Assembly: GCA_944324045.1 (NCBI GenBank)
Contig: CALUUT010000062.1
Span: forward strand, 1-35,685
Direction: 5' to 3'
Source of the DNA: an uncultured Desulfovibrionaceae bacterium
GTDB lineage: Bacteria; Desulfobacterota; Desulfovibrionia; Desulfovibrionales; Desulfovibrionaceae
Length of the DNA: 35,685 nucleotides
The translations under genes and the position numbers were made by a program. Of this stretch, positions 8,871 to 21,831 are shown piece after piece (position 1 is the first letter of the stretch; each line of letters opens with the position of its first letter). The notes beneath the pieces are model-generated. The model made no database searches and was not told the DNA's origin. It worked only from the letters and a program-made list of their open reading frames with translations.

Positions 8871-9485
8871 TCAATACCCCAATTTTTCATGAATCAAAAT
8901 CACCTCAAATTCTCCTGTCATAGGTTTCGCCCATAAGACGGAAAGCCCTCTGCAAATTCTTTCCTTGCTTTTACAGTCATAACATCTGTCCCCTTTTACG
9001 GCGCAGGGAGTTTTCGCCCCAACCCGCTTTGCATTCAGCGGCGATGCAATATTTCTTGCCCTATACAGCGCTCCTGCATAATCCTTTTCTAGTTTATTCT
9101 TGCCGATTACGAGATAAACTTTTTCATGTCCATAAAAGATAGACGCCACCCTATTACAGTTTCCATCAATGTTTATAATTTCTCCTGTTTCTGCCAAAGC
9201 ATTGACTGAAGAAATATATATGTTTGATGCGTTCGCCTTTAATCGTACTTCTCTACTGGTTTTTCCATCTGGTATTCGTTGATGCCAATAAACAGTATTA
9301 TGCTTGCTAAGCGCTTCATATAACCCAATTTGTTCAAGCGTCACGGATCCGCCAAACCCGACAGTTTCTCCATCTACGTGTGAATCTATGTATTTGACCG
9401 CCTCCTCCGATGAAGAAAAACACATAACTTGATATCCTTTATCACGTAAGTTCTTTACTACTGTTGCAAATATATTCTTATTCAC
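8871..9485 (-). CDS. LUD-domain (LutC/YkgG-like) protein
   Basis: A 204-residue single LUD-domain protein. Diagnostic segments are GETVGFGGSVTLEQIGLYEAL, a long SREVRLKANASNIYISSVNA region, GEIINIDGNCNRVASIFYG and VYLVIGKNKLEKDY. A cysteine-rich tail follows (C-x6-C-x2-C-x6-C, starting TPCAVKGDRC), typical of the stand-alone Clostridia-type members. LUD proteins take part in lactate utilisation with LutA/LutB, but neither partner is adjacent, so its job here is open. The start is GTG, with CGGAG six bases upstream on the minus strand. Codons and flanks are visibly AT-richer than the neighbouring genes, which suggests transfer. Confidence 0.82.
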   Translation of the reverse strand: MNKNIFATVVKNLRDKGYQVMCFSSSEEAVKYIDSHVDGETVGFGGSVTLEQIGLYEALSKHNTVYWHQRIPDGKTSREVRLKANASNIYISSVNALAETGEIINIDGNCNRVASIFYGHEKVYLVIGKNKLEKDYAGALYRARNIASPLNAKRVGAKTPCAVKGDRCYDCKSKERICRGLSVLWAKPMTGEFEVILIHEKLGY

Positions 9486-9840: not shown

Positions 9841-11994
9841 GTGTCCGACCCCGACACAAAGCGTGCCCCCGCGGTGCAGGAAAATCTTGCCGCAACAGAA
9901 AACATGCCTGACCTTGATAATCCCGACCTCTATCTTAACAGGGAGATAAACTGGCTCGCATTCAATGCCCGCGTGCTGGAAGAAGCGCTGAACCCTGAAC
10001 AACCGCTGCTTGATCAGTTAAATTTTCTTACCATTTTTCACAACAACCTGGATGAATTCTTCATGGTCCGGGTTGCCAATATCTATCGTCAATACCGCCA
10101 GGGCGTCGCCTCAACGTCGCCGGACAAAATGTCTCCGGCCCGCGAACTCGCTGAAATACGCCGCCGCGTCTTAACCCTTACGGCAGTGGCTCAGGACCAT
10201 TGGCGCAAGAAACTCTCCCGTGAGCTTAAAGACAAAGGCGTCCATCTTGTCCGCTATCGAGATCTTACGGAAAAGCAAAAACAATTTCTTGACGGATATT
10301 TCAAGCGGGAAATATATCCTGTGCTGACGCCCCAGGCTATCGACCCCGGTCACCCCTTCCCCATGATTTCCAACACCAGTTTGAATTTCATCATTCAGTT
10401 GCGCGGCGAGGACGGCGTCATCCGTTATGCCCGTCTGAAATGCCCAAGCAGAAACTGTCGCCTTGTCTTCATCCCGCGCAACAAGGAAGGAAAAATTTAT
10501 GCTTCGCTTGGGTTCAACGCAAATGTGCGTAACGACGATATTCTGCTCATAGAGGATTTGATACGCGAATATCTGGGAATGCTTTTTCCAGGCAACACAG
10601 TGCTCAATGCAGGACTATTCCGTATTACCCGCAATACGGACGTCGAGATAGAAGAAGACGAAGCCTCAGATCTTTTGGAAGCGGTCAAAGACCTTGTCGA
10701 ACAGCGCCGTTTTGGAGATGTCATCCGCATGGAAATAGCGCATGGAACATCGCCCGAATTGACGTCTTTTTTATGCGATCACCTGGGGCTCCAGGCTTTT
10801 CAAATATACAGAGTCAAAGGCCCGCTAGCGTTCTCCGAATTGCAGCAGCTTTACGGCATTGAGCGCCATGCGCTCAAGGCGGAACCATTTTATCCCTATC
10901 TTGCGCCGATGTTTCAGGATGCGGACATGTTCGCTCTTATCCGCAAACGGGATGTTTTCCTCTATCACCCCTATGACAGCTTCATGCCGGTGGTTGAATT
11001 TATCCGTCAGGCAAGTCAGGATCCCGGCGTCGTCGCCATAAAGCAGACCTTATACCGGGTAGGAAACGACTCCTCCATCGTGGAGGCGCTGATCGACGCC
11101 AGAAGACGCGGCAAACAGGTCACAGCGGTCGTCGAACTGCGGGCCAGATTTGATGAGGAACGCAATATTACCTGGGCTGAAGAGCTGGAAAAATCCGGCG
11201 CGCATGTTGTGTACGGCATTCCTGGAATGAAAATTCATGCCAAGCTTTGCCTTGTGGTCCGGCGGGAAACGGAAGGCGTGGTTCGCTATGTGCATATAGG
11301 CACAGGCAACTATAACACATCCACGGCAAAAATTTACAGCGACATGAGTCTGTTTACCGCAAATGAAGATATCTGCGCGGATGTGACGGACCTCTTCAAT
11401 GCCATGACCGGATATGGACATCGCGAAGCATATCGCAGCTTGCTCGTATCCCCTTTATTCATGCGCAAAGGGCTTCTTGACTGCATCGAAAGGGAAATAC
11501 TGCTGCACAAAGAACATGGCGGCGGAGAAATCATATTCAAATGCAATCAACTTGTGGACAAGCATATTATCCGCGCGCTGTACAAGGCGTCCATGGCCGG
11601 CGTGCGGGTGCATCTGCTTGTGCGCGGCATCTGCTGCCTTCGTCCCGGCGTTTCCGGAATAAGTGAAAACATCACGGTAACAGCCATACTCGGACGTTTC
11701 CTTGAACATGCGCGAACCTACTGGTTCCGCAATAATGGGGAGGGCATTCTATATATTGGGAGCGCAGACATTATGCCGCGCAACCTAGACCGCAGAATTG
11801 TAGTCATACCTCCGTTTTTTGATCCGGAACTTCGCAACTATATCCGCAATACGATTCTTGAACTGCAAATTGAAGACACTGTGCAAAACTGGAAACTCAA
11901 AGAAGATGGGACATATCAGCGCATTGTTCCCGGCAAGAAGGAACGTGAGCTCTCCTCCCAAGAATGTATGATGCGCGGCATCCGGCTTTCATAG
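9841..11994 (+). CDS. ppk1: Polyphosphate kinase Ppk1
   Basis: A 717-residue Ppk1, which reversibly transfers the terminal phosphate of ATP to polyphosphate. Domains in order are: N-terminal (NREINWLAFNARVLEEAL, NLDEFFMVRVANIYRQY), a middle head domain, and two phospholipase-D-like catalytic domains. The autophosphorylated histidine is His466 in GMKIHAKLCLV. The second catalytic histidine is His623 in FLEHARTYWFRN; the 157-residue spacing equals that of E. coli His435/His592. IGTGNYNTSTAKIYSDMSL and YIGSADIMPRNLDRR are intact. The start is GTG after AAAGGAGG. It is monocistronic in this window; a Ppx/GppA homologue lies about 8 kb downstream. Confidence 0.96.
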   Translation: MSDPDTKRAPAVQENLAATENMPDLDNPDLYLNREINWLAFNARVLEEALNPEQPLLDQLNFLTIFHNNLDEFFMVRVANIYRQYRQGVASTSPDKMSPARELAEIRRRVLTLTAVAQDHWRKKLSRELKDKGVHLVRYRDLTEKQKQFLDGYFKREIYPVLTPQAIDPGHPFPMISNTSLNFIIQLRGEDGVIRYARLKCPSRNCRLVFIPRNKEGKIYASLGFNANVRNDDILLIEDLIREYLGMLFPGNTVLNAGLFRITRNTDVEIEEDEASDLLEAVKDLVEQRRFGDVIRMEIAHGTSPELTSFLCDHLGLQAFQIYRVKGPLAFSELQQLYGIERHALKAEPFYPYLAPMFQDADMFALIRKRDVFLYHPYDSFMPVVEFIRQASQDPGVVAIKQTLYRVGNDSSIVEALIDARRRGKQVTAVVELRARFDEERNITWAEELEKSGAHVVYGIPGMKIHAKLCLVVRRETEGVVRYVHIGTGNYNTSTAKIYSDMSLFTANEDICADVTDLFNAMTGYGHREAYRSLLVSPLFMRKGLLDCIEREILLHKEHGGGEIIFKCNQLVDKHIIRALYKASMAGVRVHLLVRGICCLRPGVSGISENITVTAILGRFLEHARTYWFRNNGEGILYIGSADIMPRNLDRRIVVIPPFFDPELRNYIRNTILELQIEDTVQNWKLKEDGTYQRIVPGKKERELSSQECMMRGIRLS

Positions 11995-13243: not shown

Positions 13244-14044
13244 ATGGACATGGTTGTTTTAAATAACGGCGCAACAATGCCCATGCTTGGCCTTGGCACC
13301 TATGCGCTTTACGGCCGAGAGTGCGAACGCTGCATATTGGAAGCGCTTGAACTTGGTTACCGTCTGTTTGACACCGCGCAGATGTACGGCAACGAAAAAG
13401 AAGTGGGCAAAGCCCTCAGGCACGGCGGCATGCCGCGCGGCAAGATATTCATCACTACAAAACTGTATCGGCCCAGCGCTTCCTATGCAAGGGCAAAACA
13501 GGGCATTGAAACGTCACTGAACGCCCTTCAGCTTGACTATATTGATCTGCTGCTGATTCACGAACCATACCAGGAAGCTGAAGAAATGTATTCAGCGCTG
13601 GAAGAGGCCTATCAAAATGGACGACTCAAAGCCATAGGGGTTTCCAATTTCAGCGCCGCCCGCTACAAAGCGCTCTCGTGCTCCTGCACGACGATTCCGG
13701 CAGTTAATCAGGTTGAGGCTCATGTTTTTTTTCAGCAAAGAGAACTGCTTAAAGCCATGAAGGCATACGGCGCCCATTTACAGGCATGGAGTCCATTTGC
13801 CGCAGGAAAAAAAGATTTCTTTAATAACCATGCATTACGCTCCATCGGCCTCGTTTATGGCAAAACTCCCGCTCAAATCGCACTGAAGTATCTGATCCAG
13901 ATGGGCATTTCCGTAATTCCCAAATCGTCTCACAAGGAAAGGATAAAGGAAAACATTGATATCTTTGACTTTTGTCTGCAAGAGGAGGACATGCGCACGT
14001 TACAAACTTTGGACAGGGGTAAAACCCTGTTTGGATGGTACTAA
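13244..14044 (+). CDS. Aldo/keto reductase (AKR, prostaglandin-F/DkgA-like)
   Basis: A 266-residue single-domain TIM-barrel NAD(P)H-dependent carbonyl reductase. The catalytic tetrad is complete: Asp43 and Tyr48 in LFDTAQMYGNE, Lys73 in FITTKLY and His106 in LLIHEPY. Further family signatures are GRLKAIGVSNFSAARY and the cofactor motif VIPKSSHKERIKEN. The substrate cannot be told from sequence. It starts at an ATG after AAAGGGAAAATAAAT and ends 52 bases before the Tat-signal DUF362 gene, so it may be the first gene of a redox operon with the next two. Confidence 0.9.
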   Translation: MDMVVLNNGATMPMLGLGTYALYGRECERCILEALELGYRLFDTAQMYGNEKEVGKALRHGGMPRGKIFITTKLYRPSASYARAKQGIETSLNALQLDYIDLLLIHEPYQEAEEMYSALEEAYQNGRLKAIGVSNFSAARYKALSCSCTTIPAVNQVEAHVFFQQRELLKAMKAYGAHLQAWSPFAAGKKDFFNNHALRSIGLVYGKTPAQIALKYLIQMGISVIPKSSHKERIKENIDIFDFCLQEEDMRTLQTLDRGKTLFGWY

Positions 14045-14096
14045 GCGTACGAAGAGCACCCTTTCCTCTATTGAACGGCAGCATATTGGAGATCAC

Positions 14097-15011
14097 ATGC
14101 GCAGACGCGATTTTCTCAAGCTTCAGGTTGCAGCGGCGCTTTCCATCGGGACGGCCGCGCTTGGGCTCCCAAGCTGGCTTTCAGCCGGGGTTTCTCCCGA
14201 CATTGCCGTGGTCAAAGGAAACCCGGCTGCAGCGACCAGGGCCGCTGTGGAGTTGCTTGGCGGCATGTCGACTTTTGTCAAGCCCGGCCAAAAAGTGATC
14301 ATCAAGCCCAATATGAGTTTTACGGCGGATATCGCCAGCGCAACCAATACCCACCCCGAAGTCGTGCGCGAACTTCTGATCATGTGCATGGAAGCAGGAG
14401 CGGGAACGGTCCGCGTCCTCGACCATGCATTCCAGACAGGAATGCAGCCGCTTGAACTGTCGGGCATCCTCGCAGCCTGCAATAGCGTGATGCGCGGTGT
14501 CTGCCACAATCTTACCCATGAACGCCACTACCATGAAACCAGGTTGGACGGCGCGCAGGAGATGAAAACCAATGCCGTCATGACCGACGTGCTGGAGGCC
14601 GACGTGCTCATTGCCGCGCCTGTGGCCAAAACCAATACGTCCACTGGCGTCAGTTTATCGCTCAAGGGACAGATGGGGTTGATTCTTGACCGCAGCGTCA
14701 TGCACTGGCGTTATGACCTTGATACGGCTATCGTCGATCTCTCTTTCAAACTGAAACCCGCGCTCGCGGTGATTGACGCATCCCGTGTCCTCAGCGCCAA
14801 CGGGCCTTACGGACCAGGCAAGGTGCTTACGCCGGGAGAAATCATAGCCTCAGCCGATCCGGTCGCTGCCGACGCCATGGCAGTCGCTTCTTATGAATGG
14901 TACGGCCGCCGAATCCAGCCGCGCCAGGTAGCCCATATCGCCCAGGCTCATGCACGCGGGCTGGGACGTATGGATATTGAAAAAATGAATGTCCGACGGC
15001 TCAGCCTTTAG
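14097..15011 (+). CDS. Tat-exported DUF362 protein
   Basis: A 304-residue protein that begins with a clear twin-arginine signal (MRRRDFLKLQ, then a hydrophobic stretch to about residue 30). The rest is a DUF362 domain: VKPGQKVIIKPNMSFTADIA, THPEVVRELLIMCMEAGAG, VLEADVLIAAPVAKTNTS, SLKGQMGLILDR, and an ending ADPVAADAMAVASYEW. The family has no firmly established reaction and often lies next to ferredoxin-like proteins. No CxxCxxC motif is present in this copy, so any cluster would come from a partner. The ATG at 14097 follows TTGGAGATCAC; an in-frame start at 13956 would overlap the AKR gene and bury the Tat signal. The polyferredoxin starts 21 bases downstream. Confidence 0.85.
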   Translation: MRRRDFLKLQVAAALSIGTAALGLPSWLSAGVSPDIAVVKGNPAAATRAAVELLGGMSTFVKPGQKVIIKPNMSFTADIASATNTHPEVVRELLIMCMEAGAGTVRVLDHAFQTGMQPLELSGILAACNSVMRGVCHNLTHERHYHETRLDGAQEMKTNAVMTDVLEADVLIAAPVAKTNTSTGVSLSLKGQMGLILDRSVMHWRYDLDTAIVDLSFKLKPALAVIDASRVLSANGPYGPGKVLTPGEIIASADPVAADAMAVASYEWYGRRIQPRQVAHIAQAHARGLGRMDIEKMNVRRLSL

Positions 15012-15032
15012 ACGGACGAAAAGAGACTTTTT

Positions 15033-16655
15033 ATGGGCAGCAACGTAAGAAAAATCGTGCAGGGTATCTGCCTGATTCTTTTCTGCCTGCTGTTGGGCGC
15101 GGCTGACAACGGCGCATCTTTCGGCCTGCCGCCGGATCTTTTTCTAAGGAGCGATCCCCTTGCAGGAACAACGGTTCCCCTAATCGCGCGCGCCGTCATT
15201 CCGGCTCTTCTGCCTGCCGTATTCGTTCTGCTGCTCGCCGTACTGGCCGGACGACTCTTCTGCGGCTGGTTCTGTCCGATGGGAACGACTCTGGATATTA
15301 TCGGGAGCATGGTTCGCCGCATCCTGCAAATAGAAAAAAACAAAAGACGCCGAACTTCGGATCCTGTACCGCGGAGCATTAGATATTTTGCGCTTGCGGT
15401 GATTCTAACCGCCGCTTTCTGTAGGGCGAATCTCGTCTTCTGGGCAAGTCCCATCCCTCTGACGACGCGACTTTATGCGCTTGTCCTGCATCCGCTGGGG
15501 CTGGACGGCATCAGTCAGGGACTTGAGGCGGTCTCTCCTCTTCTGGAATGGTTGGGCGCAGTCGATTGGTTGTACTGGACTCCGGATACGCGACAGTTTC
15601 ATACTGCGTGGTTTGTCGGCGCATTCTGGATTGTTCTCGCCGCGCTGGAGCGCATCAGGCCACGTTTCTGGTGTCGGTATCTCTGTCCCGCCGGCGCTTT
15701 GCTGGGATTGTTCTCCCGGTTCGCATTCTGGAGACGGTATGTTTCGGCAGACTGCACAGCCTGCGGACGCTGCTCCGCGCAATGCCCGGCGGGGATTTTA
15801 CACGACAATCCCGCATTGTCGCAACCTGCTGAATGCCTGGCTTGTCAGGCTTGCGTATCCGCATGTAAACCCAAAGCCGTTCATTTCGGCCTGAACAGCG
15901 GCACGCCGGCATTTTCTTCTCCGCCTCAGCGATTTTTTCCTTCGCGGAGAACTTTTTGCGCCTCTGTAATCGCCGGAGCGACGCTTGGCAGCCTATCGCG
16001 CCTTGATATCTTGCAATGTTCCGCCATTACGACAGAAGCTCTGGTCAGACCCCCTGGAAGTCGTCCCGAAACAGCGTTTCTAAATCGTTGCCTGCGCTGC
16101 GGCGAATGCATGAAAGCCTGTCCCACGGGAGGATTGCAGCCAACCTGGTTTCAGGCCGGTCTTTCCGGCATGTTCACCCCCTTCCTCAATCCCCGCTCCG
16201 GCGCATGCAAACAGGACTGCACGCTCTGCGGCGCAGTCTGTCCGACGCAGGCCATACACGCGTTGCCGCTAAAAGAAAAACAGTGGGCCAAGATCGGCAC
16301 GGCCGTTATTGACCGAAAATCCTGCCTTGCCTGGGCGGAAGACAGACGCTGCATGGTCTGCAAGGAAAATTGTCCTTATGGCGCGGTGGATGTCGTTGTA
16401 CAAAAGGGGCATATAGCGCCGGTGCCGGTCGTTCACGAAAGCCGCTGCTACGGATGCGGATTCTGCGAAAAGCACTGTCCAAAGAAAAAATCTGCAATTT
16501 TAGTAAAATCTGCCGGGGCATTACGGTTGAATGCGCCAATGTTTGAAAAGACGGCCAAAACGGCGGGGCTGGAACTTGATCCCAGACGGCATCAGGGCAT
16601 AATCATTGGGCCTGATGCGGAAAACCACAGCATGCCTCCAGGTTTTCTGGAATAA
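15033..16655 (+). CDS. NapH/NapG-like fused membrane polyferredoxin
   Basis: A 540-residue protein in two halves. The N-terminal half (about 1-270) is NapH/NosR-like: several membrane helices, two CxxxCP motifs (FCGWFCPMG and RYLCPAG), then two [4Fe-4S] motifs (CTACGRCSAQCP and CLACQACVSACK). The second half (about 300-540) is NapG/MauM-like with four more motifs (CLRCGECMKACP; CKQDCTLCGAVCP; a C-x8-C-x2-C-x3-CP; CYGCGFCEKHCP). SRRTFCASVIAGATLGSL at about 304-321 looks like the Tat signal of a NapG ancestor, now internal. It probably passes quinol-derived or other electrons across the membrane to the DUF362 partner; the exact donor and acceptor are unknown. Confidence 0.87.
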   Translation: MGSNVRKIVQGICLILFCLLLGAADNGASFGLPPDLFLRSDPLAGTTVPLIARAVIPALLPAVFVLLLAVLAGRLFCGWFCPMGTTLDIIGSMVRRILQIEKNKRRRTSDPVPRSIRYFALAVILTAAFCRANLVFWASPIPLTTRLYALVLHPLGLDGISQGLEAVSPLLEWLGAVDWLYWTPDTRQFHTAWFVGAFWIVLAALERIRPRFWCRYLCPAGALLGLFSRFAFWRRYVSADCTACGRCSAQCPAGILHDNPALSQPAECLACQACVSACKPKAVHFGLNSGTPAFSSPPQRFFPSRRTFCASVIAGATLGSLSRLDILQCSAITTEALVRPPGSRPETAFLNRCLRCGECMKACPTGGLQPTWFQAGLSGMFTPFLNPRSGACKQDCTLCGAVCPTQAIHALPLKEKQWAKIGTAVIDRKSCLAWAEDRRCMVCKENCPYGAVDVVVQKGHIAPVPVVHESRCYGCGFCEKHCPKKKSAILVKSAGALRLNAPMFEKTAKTAGLELDPRRHQGIIIGPDAENHSMPPGFLE

Positions 16656-17058: not shown

Positions 17059-17214
17059 CATCCCTGCATTGACTCAACGTTATGCCCGCCAATGACAAAG
17101 CCCTGCAGTGCGCAAAAATGAGCGGAAAAATCCTGTTGAAATTTTTCAGATAAATCCGGATAATTGCGGAGCTTGGAATCACGACTTCATCTATCATGTC
17201 CAAGGATGCACGTC

Positions 17215-19209
17215 ATGAACCACAAAATTCTGTTTACGCCCTATCATATCGGCAAACTGGAACTGAAAAACCGCTTTGCCATGGCGCCCATGGGGCCATT
17301 GGGGCTTGCCGACGCCGAAGGCGGATTCAATCAGCGCGGCATAGACTACTACACTGAGCGCGCCAAAGGCGGAACCGGGCTGATCATTACCGGGGTCACT
17401 TTTGTTGAAAATAAAATAGAGGAACACGGGATGCCGAATTGCCCGTGCCCCACGCATAACCCCGTGCAATTCGTGCGCACAGCGCGCGAGATGACCGAAC
17501 GCATCCATGCGTATGGCGCAAAAACATTCTTGCAATTATCCGGCGGATTCGGACGAGTCACCATCCCCACCAATCTTGGCGAATTTCCGCCAGTCGCGCC
17601 CTCTCCGATTCCGCATCGCTGGCTGAACAAAACATGCCGCGCTCTGAGCGCGGAAGAAATTCGCTACATTGTCAAAATGTTTGGCGAAGCCGCACATCAC
17701 GCCCAACGCGCCGGTTTTGACGGCATTGAAGTTCACGCCGTGCATGAGGGATATCTTATTGACCAGTTTGCCATTGCGCTATTCAATCAGCGCACGGACC
17801 AGTATGGCGGCTGTCTTGAAAACCGTCTGCGCTTTGCGCGCGAAATTGTCGAGGAAATCAAAACCTGCTGCGGCCCGGATTTTCCTGTGGCGCTGCGCTA
17901 CAGCCCCAAAAGCATGATGAAGGACTGGCGCGTCGGGGCATTGCCGGGAGAAACGTTCAGGGAAGCCGGACGCGACCTGGATGAAGGCGTTGAAGCCGCC
18001 AGGCTCCTGGTCGAATACGGTTATGACGCTTTGGACATTGATGTGGGAACCTATGACGCCTGGTGGTGGAACCATCCCCCCATGTATCAGGAAAAAGGTC
18101 TGTACCGGAAGTATGCCAAACTGATGAAAGATTCGGTGAATGTCCCCATTCTGATGGCCGGACGCATGGATGACCCGGACATGGCCGCAACCTGTATTGA
18201 AAACGGAACCTGCGACATCATCAGTCTGGGCCGCCCTCTGCTGGCGGACCCGGATTATGTCAACAAGGTTCGGTCCGGACGATATAATCAGGTACGGCCC
18301 TGCCTCTCCTGTCAGGAGGGATGCATGGGACGCATCCAAGAATATTCCATGCTCAATTGCGCGGTGAATCCTCAAGCCGCACGGGAACGGGATATGGCGT
18401 ACCGTCCCGTGCTCCGACCTAAAAAAATTCTGGTCGTCGGGGGCGGCGTGGCCGGTTGCGAAGCAGCGCGGGTGCTTGCCATACGCGGCCATGAGCCGCA
18501 TCTGCATGAAGCCGAAAGCAGACTGGGCGGCAATCTGATTCCGGGCGGCGTGCCGAAATTCAAAGAAGACGACCGCGCCCTTGTCGCATGGTACACGGAG
18601 GAGCTTGACAGGTTGCGCGTTCCCGTGACCCTGAACAGCGCAATGACCAGAAAGGACGCGCTGGCCGGAAAATATGACGCGGTCATTATCGCCACAGGCT
18701 CGACGCCCAGAATATTCCCGCTTGGCGATGACGCGCATGTGCATACGGCGGCGGACGTGCTCTCCGGCAAAAAACGTGTCGGGAACGCCGTCGCCATCAT
18801 AGGCGGTGGTCTTGTCGGTTGCGAGACCGCGCTCTGGCTTGCCGGACAGGGCAAACAGGTGGTTATTATTGAAGCCCTGAACAAGCTTCTGGCTGTCAAT
18901 GGTCCATTATGCCACGCCAACAGCGAAATGCTGGAAGCCCTGATTCCGTTCCATGGCGTCAAAGTCATAACGAACGCCAAAGCCCAGAAATTTGAAAATG
19001 GCGTGCTGCATGCCGAAACGCCAACCGGAGACTGTCATATTGAGGCGCAGGATGTGATCCTCTGCGTGGGCTACAAGGAAGAAAACAGCCTGTACAAGGA
19101 ATTGGAATTTGATATTCCGGAATTATATCTTCTAGGCGACGCGCGTCGCGTGGCCAACATCATGTATGCCATTTGGGATGCTTTTGAAGTCGCGAACCAT
19201 ATAGACTAA
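17215..19209 (+). CDS. OYE / 2,4-dienoyl-CoA reductase-like flavoenzyme
   Basis: A 664-residue three-part enzyme related to FadH, BaiCD and BaiH. Residues 1-355 form the FMN-binding old-yellow-enzyme barrel (MNHKILFTPYHIGKLELKNR, EVHAVHEGYLIDQF, RTDQYGGCLENR, SLGRPLLADPDYV). A [4Fe-4S] site of C-x2-C-x3-C-x11-C starts at Cys363 (CLSCQEGCMGR). Two dinucleotide-binding folds follow (ILVVGGGVAGCEAARVLA and VAIIGGGLVGCETALWLAG). Electrons pass from NAD(P)H via FAD and Fe-S to FMN to reduce an activated C=C bond; the substrate is unknown (enoyl-CoA, steroid and bile-acid compounds are known for relatives). ATG 17215 lies seven bases after AAGGAT; the earlier TTG at 17164 has no such site. Confidence 0.9.
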   Translation: MNHKILFTPYHIGKLELKNRFAMAPMGPLGLADAEGGFNQRGIDYYTERAKGGTGLIITGVTFVENKIEEHGMPNCPCPTHNPVQFVRTAREMTERIHAYGAKTFLQLSGGFGRVTIPTNLGEFPPVAPSPIPHRWLNKTCRALSAEEIRYIVKMFGEAAHHAQRAGFDGIEVHAVHEGYLIDQFAIALFNQRTDQYGGCLENRLRFAREIVEEIKTCCGPDFPVALRYSPKSMMKDWRVGALPGETFREAGRDLDEGVEAARLLVEYGYDALDIDVGTYDAWWWNHPPMYQEKGLYRKYAKLMKDSVNVPILMAGRMDDPDMAATCIENGTCDIISLGRPLLADPDYVNKVRSGRYNQVRPCLSCQEGCMGRIQEYSMLNCAVNPQAARERDMAYRPVLRPKKILVVGGGVAGCEAARVLAIRGHEPHLHEAESRLGGNLIPGGVPKFKEDDRALVAWYTEELDRLRVPVTLNSAMTRKDALAGKYDAVIIATGSTPRIFPLGDDAHVHTAADVLSGKKRVGNAVAIIGGGLVGCETALWLAGQGKQVVIIEALNKLLAVNGPLCHANSEMLEALIPFHGVKVITNAKAQKFENGVLHAETPTGDCHIEAQDVILCVGYKEENSLYKELEFDIPELYLLGDARRVANIMYAIWDAFEVANHID

Positions 19210-19288: not shown

Positions 19289-20248
19289 ATGGCCGCAGAC
19301 ACAAACAATAAAACGGAAACAACCCCCACTCAATGTCCCGCAAAGACAGAGGGGACTCTTTTGCCTGCGGACAAGATAGAAATATCCCAAAAGCATGCAG
19401 GCTCTGTAAAGACGGGCATAAAGCCCGCGTCACCCTCAAAAAGGACGCTTTCTACTAAAACTCCCCTGAAAAGGGGTTCCGAAAAAACGGCAAAATGCGC
19501 AACCGCCGTGAAGCCTCAAAAAACAGATACGCCCGCAGAGCTCTCGCCTGCGCGGAGCGTCATTCCGGTTGGCGTTCAAGCTCAAACGCTTCCCGCAAAA
19601 AAAACTTCGTCCGATTCACAGCATAAAAAACAGCCCACCCCAAACGCGCCGGCTTTTGATGCCTCTGCCAGTGCGTCGTGCGAAAACACGTCAATAGCAG
19701 ACCAAAACAAACACGCCGCACAGGTCGAATTTCTGGCTGCAACCCTGTTCAGGGAGCTTGCAGCCGTGCATAATCTTGATGCGACGTGGGAACGGCGATT
19801 GCGCCTGGCCGCACGTTTCCATGATCTTGGCTGGAAAGACGGACGCAAAGGGCACCACAAAGCAAGCATGCGCATTATTGAACACGAAGATCTTGGCATT
19901 GATCCGTCTGATCGCCCCTTTGTGGCCCTGCTTGCCCGCTATCACCGCAAGGCATGGCCGTCACTAAAGCATAGACGCTTTGCCACGTTATGCAGCGACG
20001 ATCGAACGGCTGTGCGCACGCTTGCAGCAATTTTGCGCGTTGCCGACGCGTTGGACTACTCGCACGGAAATACAGTCAAGGAGCTCGCCCTCAGATTCCG
20101 GGAAAGCAAAAAGGGGAAAAGGCGGGCTGCCATTACCCTCATGTGCGCAGGGGATGCATCCGCTGAAATAGCCCGCGCCTTGGAAAAAGGCGATTTATTT
20201 GAAGACGTCTTTCACATGGAGCTGCGTATCTCGTGTCAGGATTCATAA
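19289..20248 (+). CDS. HD-domain protein with long disordered N-terminus
   Basis: A 319-residue protein. Residues 1-145 are rich in Lys, Thr, Ser, Pro and Ala, with no hydrophobic core, and are probably disordered. Residues about 148-319 form an HD-type domain: LAARFHDLGWKDGRKGHHKA (His178-Asp179), FVALLARYHRKAWP, TLAAILRVADALDYSHGN, and a basic/acidic tail. This domain resembles the C-terminal HD domain of the next gene's product (see findings). The ATG follows AGGAGACTGAC. Its last 16 bases overlap the Ppx/GppA gene, so the two are translationally coupled. The activity is unknown: phosphohydrolase on nucleotides or polyphosphate is plausible, and a regulatory subunit is equally possible. 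Confidence 0.72.
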   Translation: MAADTNNKTETTPTQCPAKTEGTLLPADKIEISQKHAGSVKTGIKPASPSKRTLSTKTPLKRGSEKTAKCATAVKPQKTDTPAELSPARSVIPVGVQAQTLPAKKTSSDSQHKKQPTPNAPAFDASASASCENTSIADQNKHAAQVEFLAATLFRELAAVHNLDATWERRLRLAARFHDLGWKDGRKGHHKASMRIIEHEDLGIDPSDRPFVALLARYHRKAWPSLKHRRFATLCSDDRTAVRTLAAILRVADALDYSHGNTVKELALRFRESKKGKRRAAITLMCAGDASAEIARALEKGDLFEDVFHMELRISCQDS

Positions 20249-21831
20249 CAGACAGCCGGCATTACGCCGGACGGGTGCTTGGCATCATCGACCTTGGAAG
20301 CAATTCGGCCAGACTTATGCTGGTGCGCGTTCATCCGGATTCCTCAAGCACTGTGCTCAACCAGGTCAAACATATGGTGCGGCTTGGCGAGGGCGGATTC
20401 ACGGAAAACCGTCTTCAGGAAGCGGCCATGGCGCGCGCCATAGAAGTTCTTGAAGGGTTTGCAAAAATGTGCGCCGTATACGGCGCGCAGGAAGTGCTGG
20501 CCATAACCACGGCAGCCGTGCGCGACGCGTCCAATGGAACGGAGTTCATACACCGCGCGTATGCCTGCACTGGCATCCACCTGACGGTTATTTCCGGCAT
20601 GGAAGAGGCCCGGCTCATTTATCTTGGCGTGTCCGGCGGGCTCCCGCACAGTTCTCAGCCGCGACTGTTTGTGGATATCGGCGGCGGCAGCACGGAATTG
20701 ATCGTGGGGGATTCGCATGCGCATTACAGCCTTGATTCCCTTAAAATCGGCTGTGTACGCCTGACCAACCAGTTTTTTGGAGACGACGCCGGTCCTGTTT
20801 CCCCTAAGCGATATGCAACATTGCGGGAATACATCCGGAATGAGGCTGTGCATGCGTTCCAGCGTCTGCGCCCCTTTGCCCTGACCGAAGCCGTCGGCAG
20901 CTCCGGAACCATCCAGAGTCTTTTTGGAATTGCATCCATGGCGGAAAATGGGGAGAATCGTCTCGCCTCCGCTGCAAACGGCGCGGACAGGGTCTTGTCC
21001 TTTACCGGATTGCAAGCCGCCGCGCAAAAGCTTTGCGCCATGACGCTGAATGAGCGCCGGGCCATTCCAGGCATCAATCCAGGTCGGGCCCAAGTTATTG
21101 TGGCCGGCGCCGCAATCCTTGAAACCATCATGGAAGAACAACGCCTTGAGTGCATCGCCGTAAGTTCCCGCAACCTGCAGCATGGCATTCTTGCGGACTA
21201 TCTCATGCGCGCTTTTCCGGAACGCCTGAATGGAGAACTTTCAGTCCGGGAACAAAGCGTGCTTGGTCTTGCGCAAAACTGTCGTTTTGAAAAACAGCAT
21301 GCGCTGCACGTCACGGCCCTGGCGCTTGAACTTTTTGACAGCGCCCGCGCTTTGAACCTGCACAGGGCCGACAGCGAAGCCCGCGAACTTTTGCGTTATG
21401 CGGCCCTGCTGCACGATATCGGCATTTTCATCGCCTTTACGGATCATCACGCTCATAGCCGGTATCTTATCCACAATACGGAGCTTCTGGGCTTTACGGC
21501 GAGAGATATTGATATCATCGCCAACATAGCGTATGCCCACCGTAAACGGCCATCCAAAAAAGACGCCATACTGGCAGGATTGGATGAAGACGCCGCGGAA
21601 CTGGTCCGCTTGCTGTGTATCTTTCTTATTCTCGCCGAACGACTCGACAGGAGTCACTGCGGGCTTGTGCGCGCAGCCCGCTTTGCCTCACGCGGCGAAG
21701 AACTCATGCTTATCATTGATGCTTGCGGTCCCTGCCCTATTGAACTTCTTGCTGTGGACAGAGCCCGGAAGCAGATTGAAAAAAGTTTCGGCAAAGACAT
21801 AACAATCCACATTCTTGGGCAAAACGTTTAA
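20233..21831 (+). CDS. Ppx/GppA phosphatase with C-terminal HD domain
   Basis: A 532-residue protein of the exopolyphosphatase/guanosine pentaphosphatase family. The ASKHA-fold ATPase-like part (about 1-310) has phosphate-binding loops GIIDLGSNSARLML and VDIGGGSTELIVG, GSSGTIQSLFG and SSRNLQHGILADYL. The C-terminal part (about 340-532) is an HD domain: YAALLHDIGIFIAFTDHHAH, NIAYAHRKRPSKKD, LLCIFLILAERLDRSHCG. It probably hydrolyses polyphosphate or pppGpp; sequence cannot separate these. It begins at a GTG inside the end of the preceding HD gene. ppk1 lies about 8 kb upstream in the same orientation, so synthesis and breakdown genes are not in one operon. The convergent exonuclease gene ends 69 bases away. 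Confidence 0.88.
   Translation: MSGFITDSRHYAGRVLGIIDLGSNSARLMLVRVHPDSSSTVLNQVKHMVRLGEGGFTENRLQEAAMARAIEVLEGFAKMCAVYGAQEVLAITTAAVRDASNGTEFIHRAYACTGIHLTVISGMEEARLIYLGVSGGLPHSSQPRLFVDIGGGSTELIVGDSHAHYSLDSLKIGCVRLTNQFFGDDAGPVSPKRYATLREYIRNEAVHAFQRLRPFALTEAVGSSGTIQSLFGIASMAENGENRLASAANGADRVLSFTGLQAAAQKLCAMTLNERRAIPGINPGRAQVIVAGAAILETIMEEQRLECIAVSSRNLQHGILADYLMRAFPERLNGELSVREQSVLGLAQNCRFEKQHALHVTALALELFDSARALNLHRADSEARELLRYAALLHDIGIFIAFTDHHAHSRYLIHNTELLGFTARDIDIIANIAYAHRKRPSKKDAILAGLDEDAAELVRLLCIFLILAERLDRSHCGLVRAARFASRGEELMLIIDACGPCPIELLAVDRARKQIEKSFGKDITIHILGQNV

Follow-up and report, generated by a model that had tools for sequence, protein, structure and literature searches.

A conserved pair of a Tat-exported DUF362 protein and a fused polyferredoxin in Desulfobacterota is a candidate nickel-pincer-type redox module of the cell envelope

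Two kinds of described system bear on the locus reported here. The first is a polytopic polyferredoxin from MLMS-1 (Q1NSB0) that is described as a NapH–NapG fusion and needs both the Sec and the twin-arginine translocation (Tat) pathways, according to the passages of Tooke et al. (2017; PMC5449189) that treat it. The second is the racemase LarA, in which the nickel-pincer nucleotide (NPN) cofactor is contacted by R75, K184 and H200 and the catalytic residues are D72, H108, H174 and K298 (PMC7583248). About 15% of surveyed genomes carry larBCE without larA, from which unknown NPN-binding proteins have been inferred (PMC11796402, 2024). We analyzed a stretch of 35,685 nucleotides (contig CALUUT010000062.1 of assembly GCA_944324045.1; hereafter the window) from an uncultured Desulfovibrionaceae bacterium, a gut sulfate-reducer. 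It encodes a DUF362 protein that is predicted to be exported by Tat and, directly 3' of it, a polyferredoxin (PFD) with the layout of the dual Sec–Tat family. The two are conserved partners, and we propose, with a probability of about 0.47, that they form an envelope module in which an exported NPN-type oxidoreductase is wired to the quinone pool.

The DUF362 gene (14097–15011, 304 amino acids) matches PF04015 at 2e-34, with a score of 119.9 bits against a gathering score of 24. The PFD gene (15033–16655, 540 amino acids) matches Fer4_5 and several Fer4 models of Pfam and encodes a membrane-anchored protein. They are preceded by the gene for a DkgA-like aldo-keto reductase (AKR; 13244–14044, 266 amino acids; PF00248, 4e-49), which is an accessory, clade-specific gene. 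All three lie on the plus strand, as do the features within them, with gaps of 52 bases between AKR and DUF362 and 21 bases between DUF362 and PFD; open reading frame calls and Pfam bear out this part of the initial annotation. No clear terminator was seen between the three genes in a promoter and terminator scan that rose only modestly over the shuffled background, and their co-transcription is likely.

To describe how widely the pair is kept, we used 199 genomes of the taxonomic family and counted DUF362 orthologues above 300 bits. DUF362 orthologues were present in 44 of these genomes, PFD orthologues in 45, and both in 42. Put differently, PFD was found in 42/44 genomes with DUF362 versus 3/155 without it (Fisher's exact test, 5e-37, relatedness ignored), and the exceptions are incomplete assemblies. 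PFD is immediately 3' of DUF362 at most loci, both within the family and phylum-wide, and a distant tier of the two proteins (approximately 30–38% identity) is likewise paired. These and other statements about neighboring genes are based on tblastn or phmmer matches or on genes read individually. Several genera (G007, G083, G118 and G130) have the two genes far apart yet keep both; in G007, DUF362 is at C1:2505859 and PFD at C1:54882. Because both are kept even when distant, the data point to a joint function beyond shared position. No constant third gene was found beside the pair in the neighborhoods compared. Judged by genome comparison, the core unit is DUF362–PFD, which are not chance neighbors, and the AKR is outside that core. 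The pair is conserved across the phylum, and the outcome that the initial annotation had named as one that would refute it, a lack of such conservation, did not arise.

The PFD has a weak NCBIfam match to NapG (residues 304–491) and a weak match to NapH (196–285). Both scores are below the cut-offs, so we did not assign it to either family and call it only a fusion of related parts. The NapH part carries two CxxCxxCxxxC motifs for [4Fe-4S] clusters (C241–251 and C268–278; 15753–15866), predicted to face the cytoplasm, and two CxxxCP pairs (C77/81 and C214/218). Four more [4Fe-4S] motifs (C353–363, C392–403, C431–447 and C472–482; 16089–16478) are in the NapG part, which is predicted to be periplasmic. 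The six motifs, the number given in the initial annotation, and the two CxxxCP pairs are invariant in 23/23 PFDs. An internal twin-arginine, R305–R306, also invariant in the 23 PFDs, directly precedes transmembrane segment TM5, and this region (15942–16007) is predicted to be inserted by Tat. TM5 (residues 304–324) scores as poorly hydrophobic (4.2 versus 0.3 for TM1) on a simplified hydrophobicity scale of our own that is not a published predictor, which is consistent with a TM5 that is less hydrophobic than the Sec-inserted segments, as in the dual Sec–Tat family. A structure model of PFD was set aside as unusable (predicted local distance difference test score, pLDDT, of 34; built on three sequences).

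The fusion of NapH and NapG parts, the NapH-side clusters, the internal twin-arginine before TM5 and the four C-terminal clusters are all shared with the dual Sec–Tat polyferredoxin as the relevant passages of PMC5449189 portray it. What differs from that account is the DUF362 partner, of which PMC5449189 makes no mention; its text does not contain the term DUF. As a comparison, the NapGH quinol dehydrogenase also combines NapH and NapG parts, and electrons likely flow from quinol to the periplasm in PFD as well. Unlike NapGH, PFD is a single polypeptide with a DUF362 partner and has no nitrate reductase gene beside it.

A further feature of PFD is found at its C-terminus, which ends in PPGFLE (16635–16655, stop codon included) after a variable linker. 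Comparison of orthologue tails showed that 50 of 57 distinct full-length PFDs end in PPGF or APGF plus a few residues, versus 0.9% of shuffled tails; the motif is sometimes doubled, and most of the exceptions carry near variants. This (P/A)PGF tail, which the passages of PMC5449189 on the dual Sec–Tat family do not mention, is on this comparison a feature of PFDs that we describe as new here. None of the distant-tier PFDs has it; three of them (L140–L142) end in DFPF. In two PFDs of genus g28 (L151 and L152) the tail consists of repeated PFDPAP units rather than PPGF. We also considered whether PPGF is a general sorting tag and rejected this, as the DNA pattern has a single occurrence in the window's own genome and matches outside PFD are scattered in 30 relatives.

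The N-terminus of DUF362 reads MRRRDFLK, and the RRRDFLK motif marks a predicted Tat signal peptide (14097–14182, end approximate) in which R3, R4 and F6 are at least 90% conserved among 36 homologues. A search by sequence for relatives of solved structure returned nothing credible. We also used a structure model of DUF362 (pLDDT 63; predicted template modeling score 0.72). When this model was compared with known structures, the 12 top VIA-align rows were LarA or LarA-like proteins and 4nar, with Z scores of 9.6–11.2; the next score was 7.0. The alignment covers the LarA N-domain only. DUF362 and the LarA family are placed in the same Pfam clan, CL0471 (PMC11770544). The nearest named DUF362 family considered, Npun_F2552 (NF052623), matches the window protein at 52.6 bits, far under its cut-off of 500 bits.

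Profile comparison with hhalign placed DUF362 positions 180, 190 and 203 onto LarA H174, K184 and H200 (E = 4e-4), and a second hhalign comparison repeated the register for H180 and K190. K190 (14664–14666), aligned with the NPN-tethering lysine of LarA, is Lys in 59/59 homologues, and H203 (14703–14705), aligned with the nickel ligand, is His in 58/59. Position 180 (14634–14636), at the place of the catalytic H174, is His in 56/59 homologues and Asn in the clade of the window. The pattern extends beyond close relatives. A set of 17 DUF362 proteins that spans several subfamilies, with the most distant members at 16–30% identity, shows no variation at K190 and H203 and almost none at H180. The cytosolic paralogue L178 carries an insertion of a two-cluster ferredoxin directly after the H203 position, so that Fe–S clusters are present in cis there; if the proposed module is correct, PFD would supply them in trans in the window pair.

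We also asked where DUF362 genes lie relative to the genes for NPN synthesis. In genus g41 (G040 and G068) the order DUF362–PFD–larE–larB–larC1 is found on one strand with close spacing, so that the whole NPN pathway follows the pair. The G040 proteins exceed the NCBIfam equivalog cut-offs (LarE 258 bits versus 150, LarB 238 versus 175, LarC1 157 versus 90), and no LarA was found in these lar-operon stretches of G040 and G068. The window's genome likewise has LarB, LarC and LarE over the cut-offs, and larA was not detected in it, with no Lar_N match. Cytosolic DUF362 genes adjoin larEBC in three genomes (G461, G266 and G326), tail-to-tail in two of these. Overall, 5 of the 20 genera inspected have a DUF362 gene no more than 5 kb from a lar gene. 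A rough binomial estimate for this is 1e-4 if the cases are independent and 0.01 if they represent three events; these figures are indicative only because the inspected genomes were picked for having the pair. Our literature search found no paper that names DUF362 as an NPN-binding protein.

Two side observations concern the same genes. In the window's own genome (contig C104, L176, 8719–10579), larC1 is directly 3' of a Tat-DUF362 paralogue, the motif of which, GHTMGGFGGSLKN, is still nearer to the LarA signature. At L212, L213 and L214, from three genera of one family, a cytosolic DUF362 of 446–469 amino acids adjoins larE–larB–larC.

The module we propose would work as follows. DUF362, with its LarA N-domain-like fold, would fold in the cytoplasm and take up NPN from LarB, LarE and LarC near K190 and H203, and the folded protein would then leave the cytoplasm via Tat with its cofactor loaded. 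PFD would be inserted first by Sec and then by Tat. Its periplasmic clusters would exchange electrons with menaquinol in the manner of NapGH and pass them on to the NPN site in DUF362, a direction that we infer. The layout of the gene products agrees with the suggestion of the initial annotation that electrons cross the membrane to reach an exported DUF362 protein. The (P/A)PGF tail could, at a guess, be a docking peptide for DUF362. DUF362 would carry out net redox chemistry on a small molecule, perhaps of the carbonyl or 2-hydroxy-acid type; in LarA such redox is hidden in racemization. NPN binding and the type of substrate are the weakest links in this scheme.

Several observations weigh against it. 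The hhalign probability for the DUF362–LarA register is 34%, and confidence in the DUF362 model is modest, with residues 193–214 below a pLDDT of 50. DUF362 resembles LarA in fold, in the register of Lys and His and in the lar biosynthesis genes of the g41 operon. Unlike LarA, it is exported and has an Fe–S protein partner, its 304 residues do not include the C-terminal (substrate) domain, and no conserved counterparts of R75, D72 or H108 were evident in the alignment of 17 proteins. The window protein also has N180 in place of the catalytic H174. Because R75, D72, H108 and the C-domain are missing, DUF362 is no LarA racemase, but it may nonetheless bind NPN. The lar operon link of this exact DUF362 subfamily was seen in one genus only, and genomes that lack DUF362–PFD still keep lar genes. 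Moreover, LarC is in 179/199 family genomes with or without DUF362–PFD. With this control, co-occurrence is uninformative and was dropped as a line of evidence; gene position and residues carry the case instead.

The loss of R75, D72 and H108, the restriction of the lar link to one genus and the presence of lar genes in almost the whole family favor a different explanation, in which DUF362–PFD is a membrane-to-periplasm electron pair that does not use NPN, the LarA-like fold holds another cofactor, and the g41 lar operon is coincidental. C97 and C128 are conserved in 57/59 and 55/59 homologues and could hold an Fe–S cluster or metal; a nucleotide is another candidate. Across DUF362 at large, however, it is K190 and H203 rather than the cysteines that are invariant, and these match the NPN residues of LarA. 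In two genomes, PFD is followed by three lar genes that overlap or are closely spaced, which also speaks against coincidence. We consider this explanation unlikely.

The pair could instead be a maturation or repair system, in which electrons from PFD let DUF362 load, reduce or repair the cofactor of another exported enzyme. A candidate client would be a Tat-signal nitroreductase-like protein, a gene for which, named by sequence appearance, is beside or near the pair in L075, L082, L083 and L095. That no constant substrate gene travels with DUF362–PFD would fit such a role. However, most neighborhoods, the window included, do not have the nitroreductase-like gene, and DUF362 conserves His and Lys of a catalytic kind, as expected of an enzyme. 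We consider this explanation quite improbable.

The AKR has an intact catalytic tetrad by inspection (D43/Y48/K73/H106), and the DkgA model scores 229 bits on it, under the cut-off of 425. It is beside DUF362 in the window and in L007 only. L066 has an apparent operon of AKR, FMN reductase, MFS, short-chain dehydrogenase/reductase (SDR), DUF362 and PFD, divergent from a LysR gene, and L006 has the order MFS, RND pump, SDR, DUF362 and PFD (MFS, RND and LysR genes are named by appearance). These four loci form one clade (support 98/92) and are the only members with Asn at DUF362 position 180. Asn is also known from this catalytic position in a subfamily of LarA (PMC12611868). As both traits have one origin on the tree, the reductase/efflux operon came together with the H180N change. 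This suggests that the substrate or mechanism of the pair shifted when it joined an operon that contains efflux genes and an AKR or SDR gene and acquired Asn in place of H180. The AKR itself may be a cytoplasmic enzyme that acts on related carbonyl compounds independently of the pair.

The initial annotation had treated the AKR as part of the envelope unit and had supposed that its addition might be lineage-specific. Only the second idea stands: from these comparisons the AKR joined the pair late, within a single clade of gut Desulfovibrio, and we rejected it as a core part. A single envelope redox pathway of all three proteins, with AKR supplying or removing substrate or reductant, draws on the short same-strand gaps, the AKR genes of L007 and L066 and, on contig C94 of the same genome, a second AKR gene separated by 27 bases from that of another Tat-DUF362, but it is the least probable explanation, as the AKR is a cytoplasmic NAD(P)H user without a known link to Fe–S carriers, is beside the pair nowhere else, and in L006 and L066 gives way to an SDR immediately 5' of DUF362. 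The C94 locus (L180, 2245–13428) is an oxidoreductase island that also holds flavodoxins, larB, an Fe–S AKR, FMN reductases, an SDR and a hydrolase. Overall, the initial interpretation is partly supported and fits better once the AKR is dropped from the core and the LarA/NPN reading is added; the LarA fold, the match to NPN residues, the larEBC operon link, the internal Tat signal and known family of PFD, and the PPGF tail all go beyond it.

Other genes flank the unit in the window. A FadH/old yellow enzyme-type flavoenzyme gene (17206–19209, plus strand) is 0.5 kb 3' of the unit and outside it; it is related to the bilirubin reductase (long form) and BaiCD models at scores well under the cut-offs. 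By appearance, 9841–11994 encodes a polyphosphate kinase and 20233–21831 a Ppx/GppA-like protein, and the AKR–DUF362–PFD unit and the flavoenzyme gene sit between these two. An HD-like gene (19289–20248) neighbors the Ppx/GppA-like gene, and a gene that is LUD/LutC-like by appearance (8871–9485, minus strand) is divergent from the polyphosphate kinase gene.

Returning to the proposed NPN-type module, its parts are of known kinds, and the combination of DUF362, PFD and NPN would be new. We tentatively extend the proposal, at somewhat less than even odds, to the idea that DUF362 is the missing NPN enzyme family of NPN-making genomes without LarA, with DUF362–PFD its first respiratory version, wired to quinone by a dual Sec–Tat polyferredoxin. 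For the surveyed genomes that have the pathway without LarA (PMC11796402), DUF362 is a testable candidate for the NPN user, with named residues. The Sec–Tat polyferredoxin family gains a conserved partner in DUF362. If the proposal is true, DUF362–PFD would tie a nickel-pincer enzyme to a membrane electron-transfer chain.

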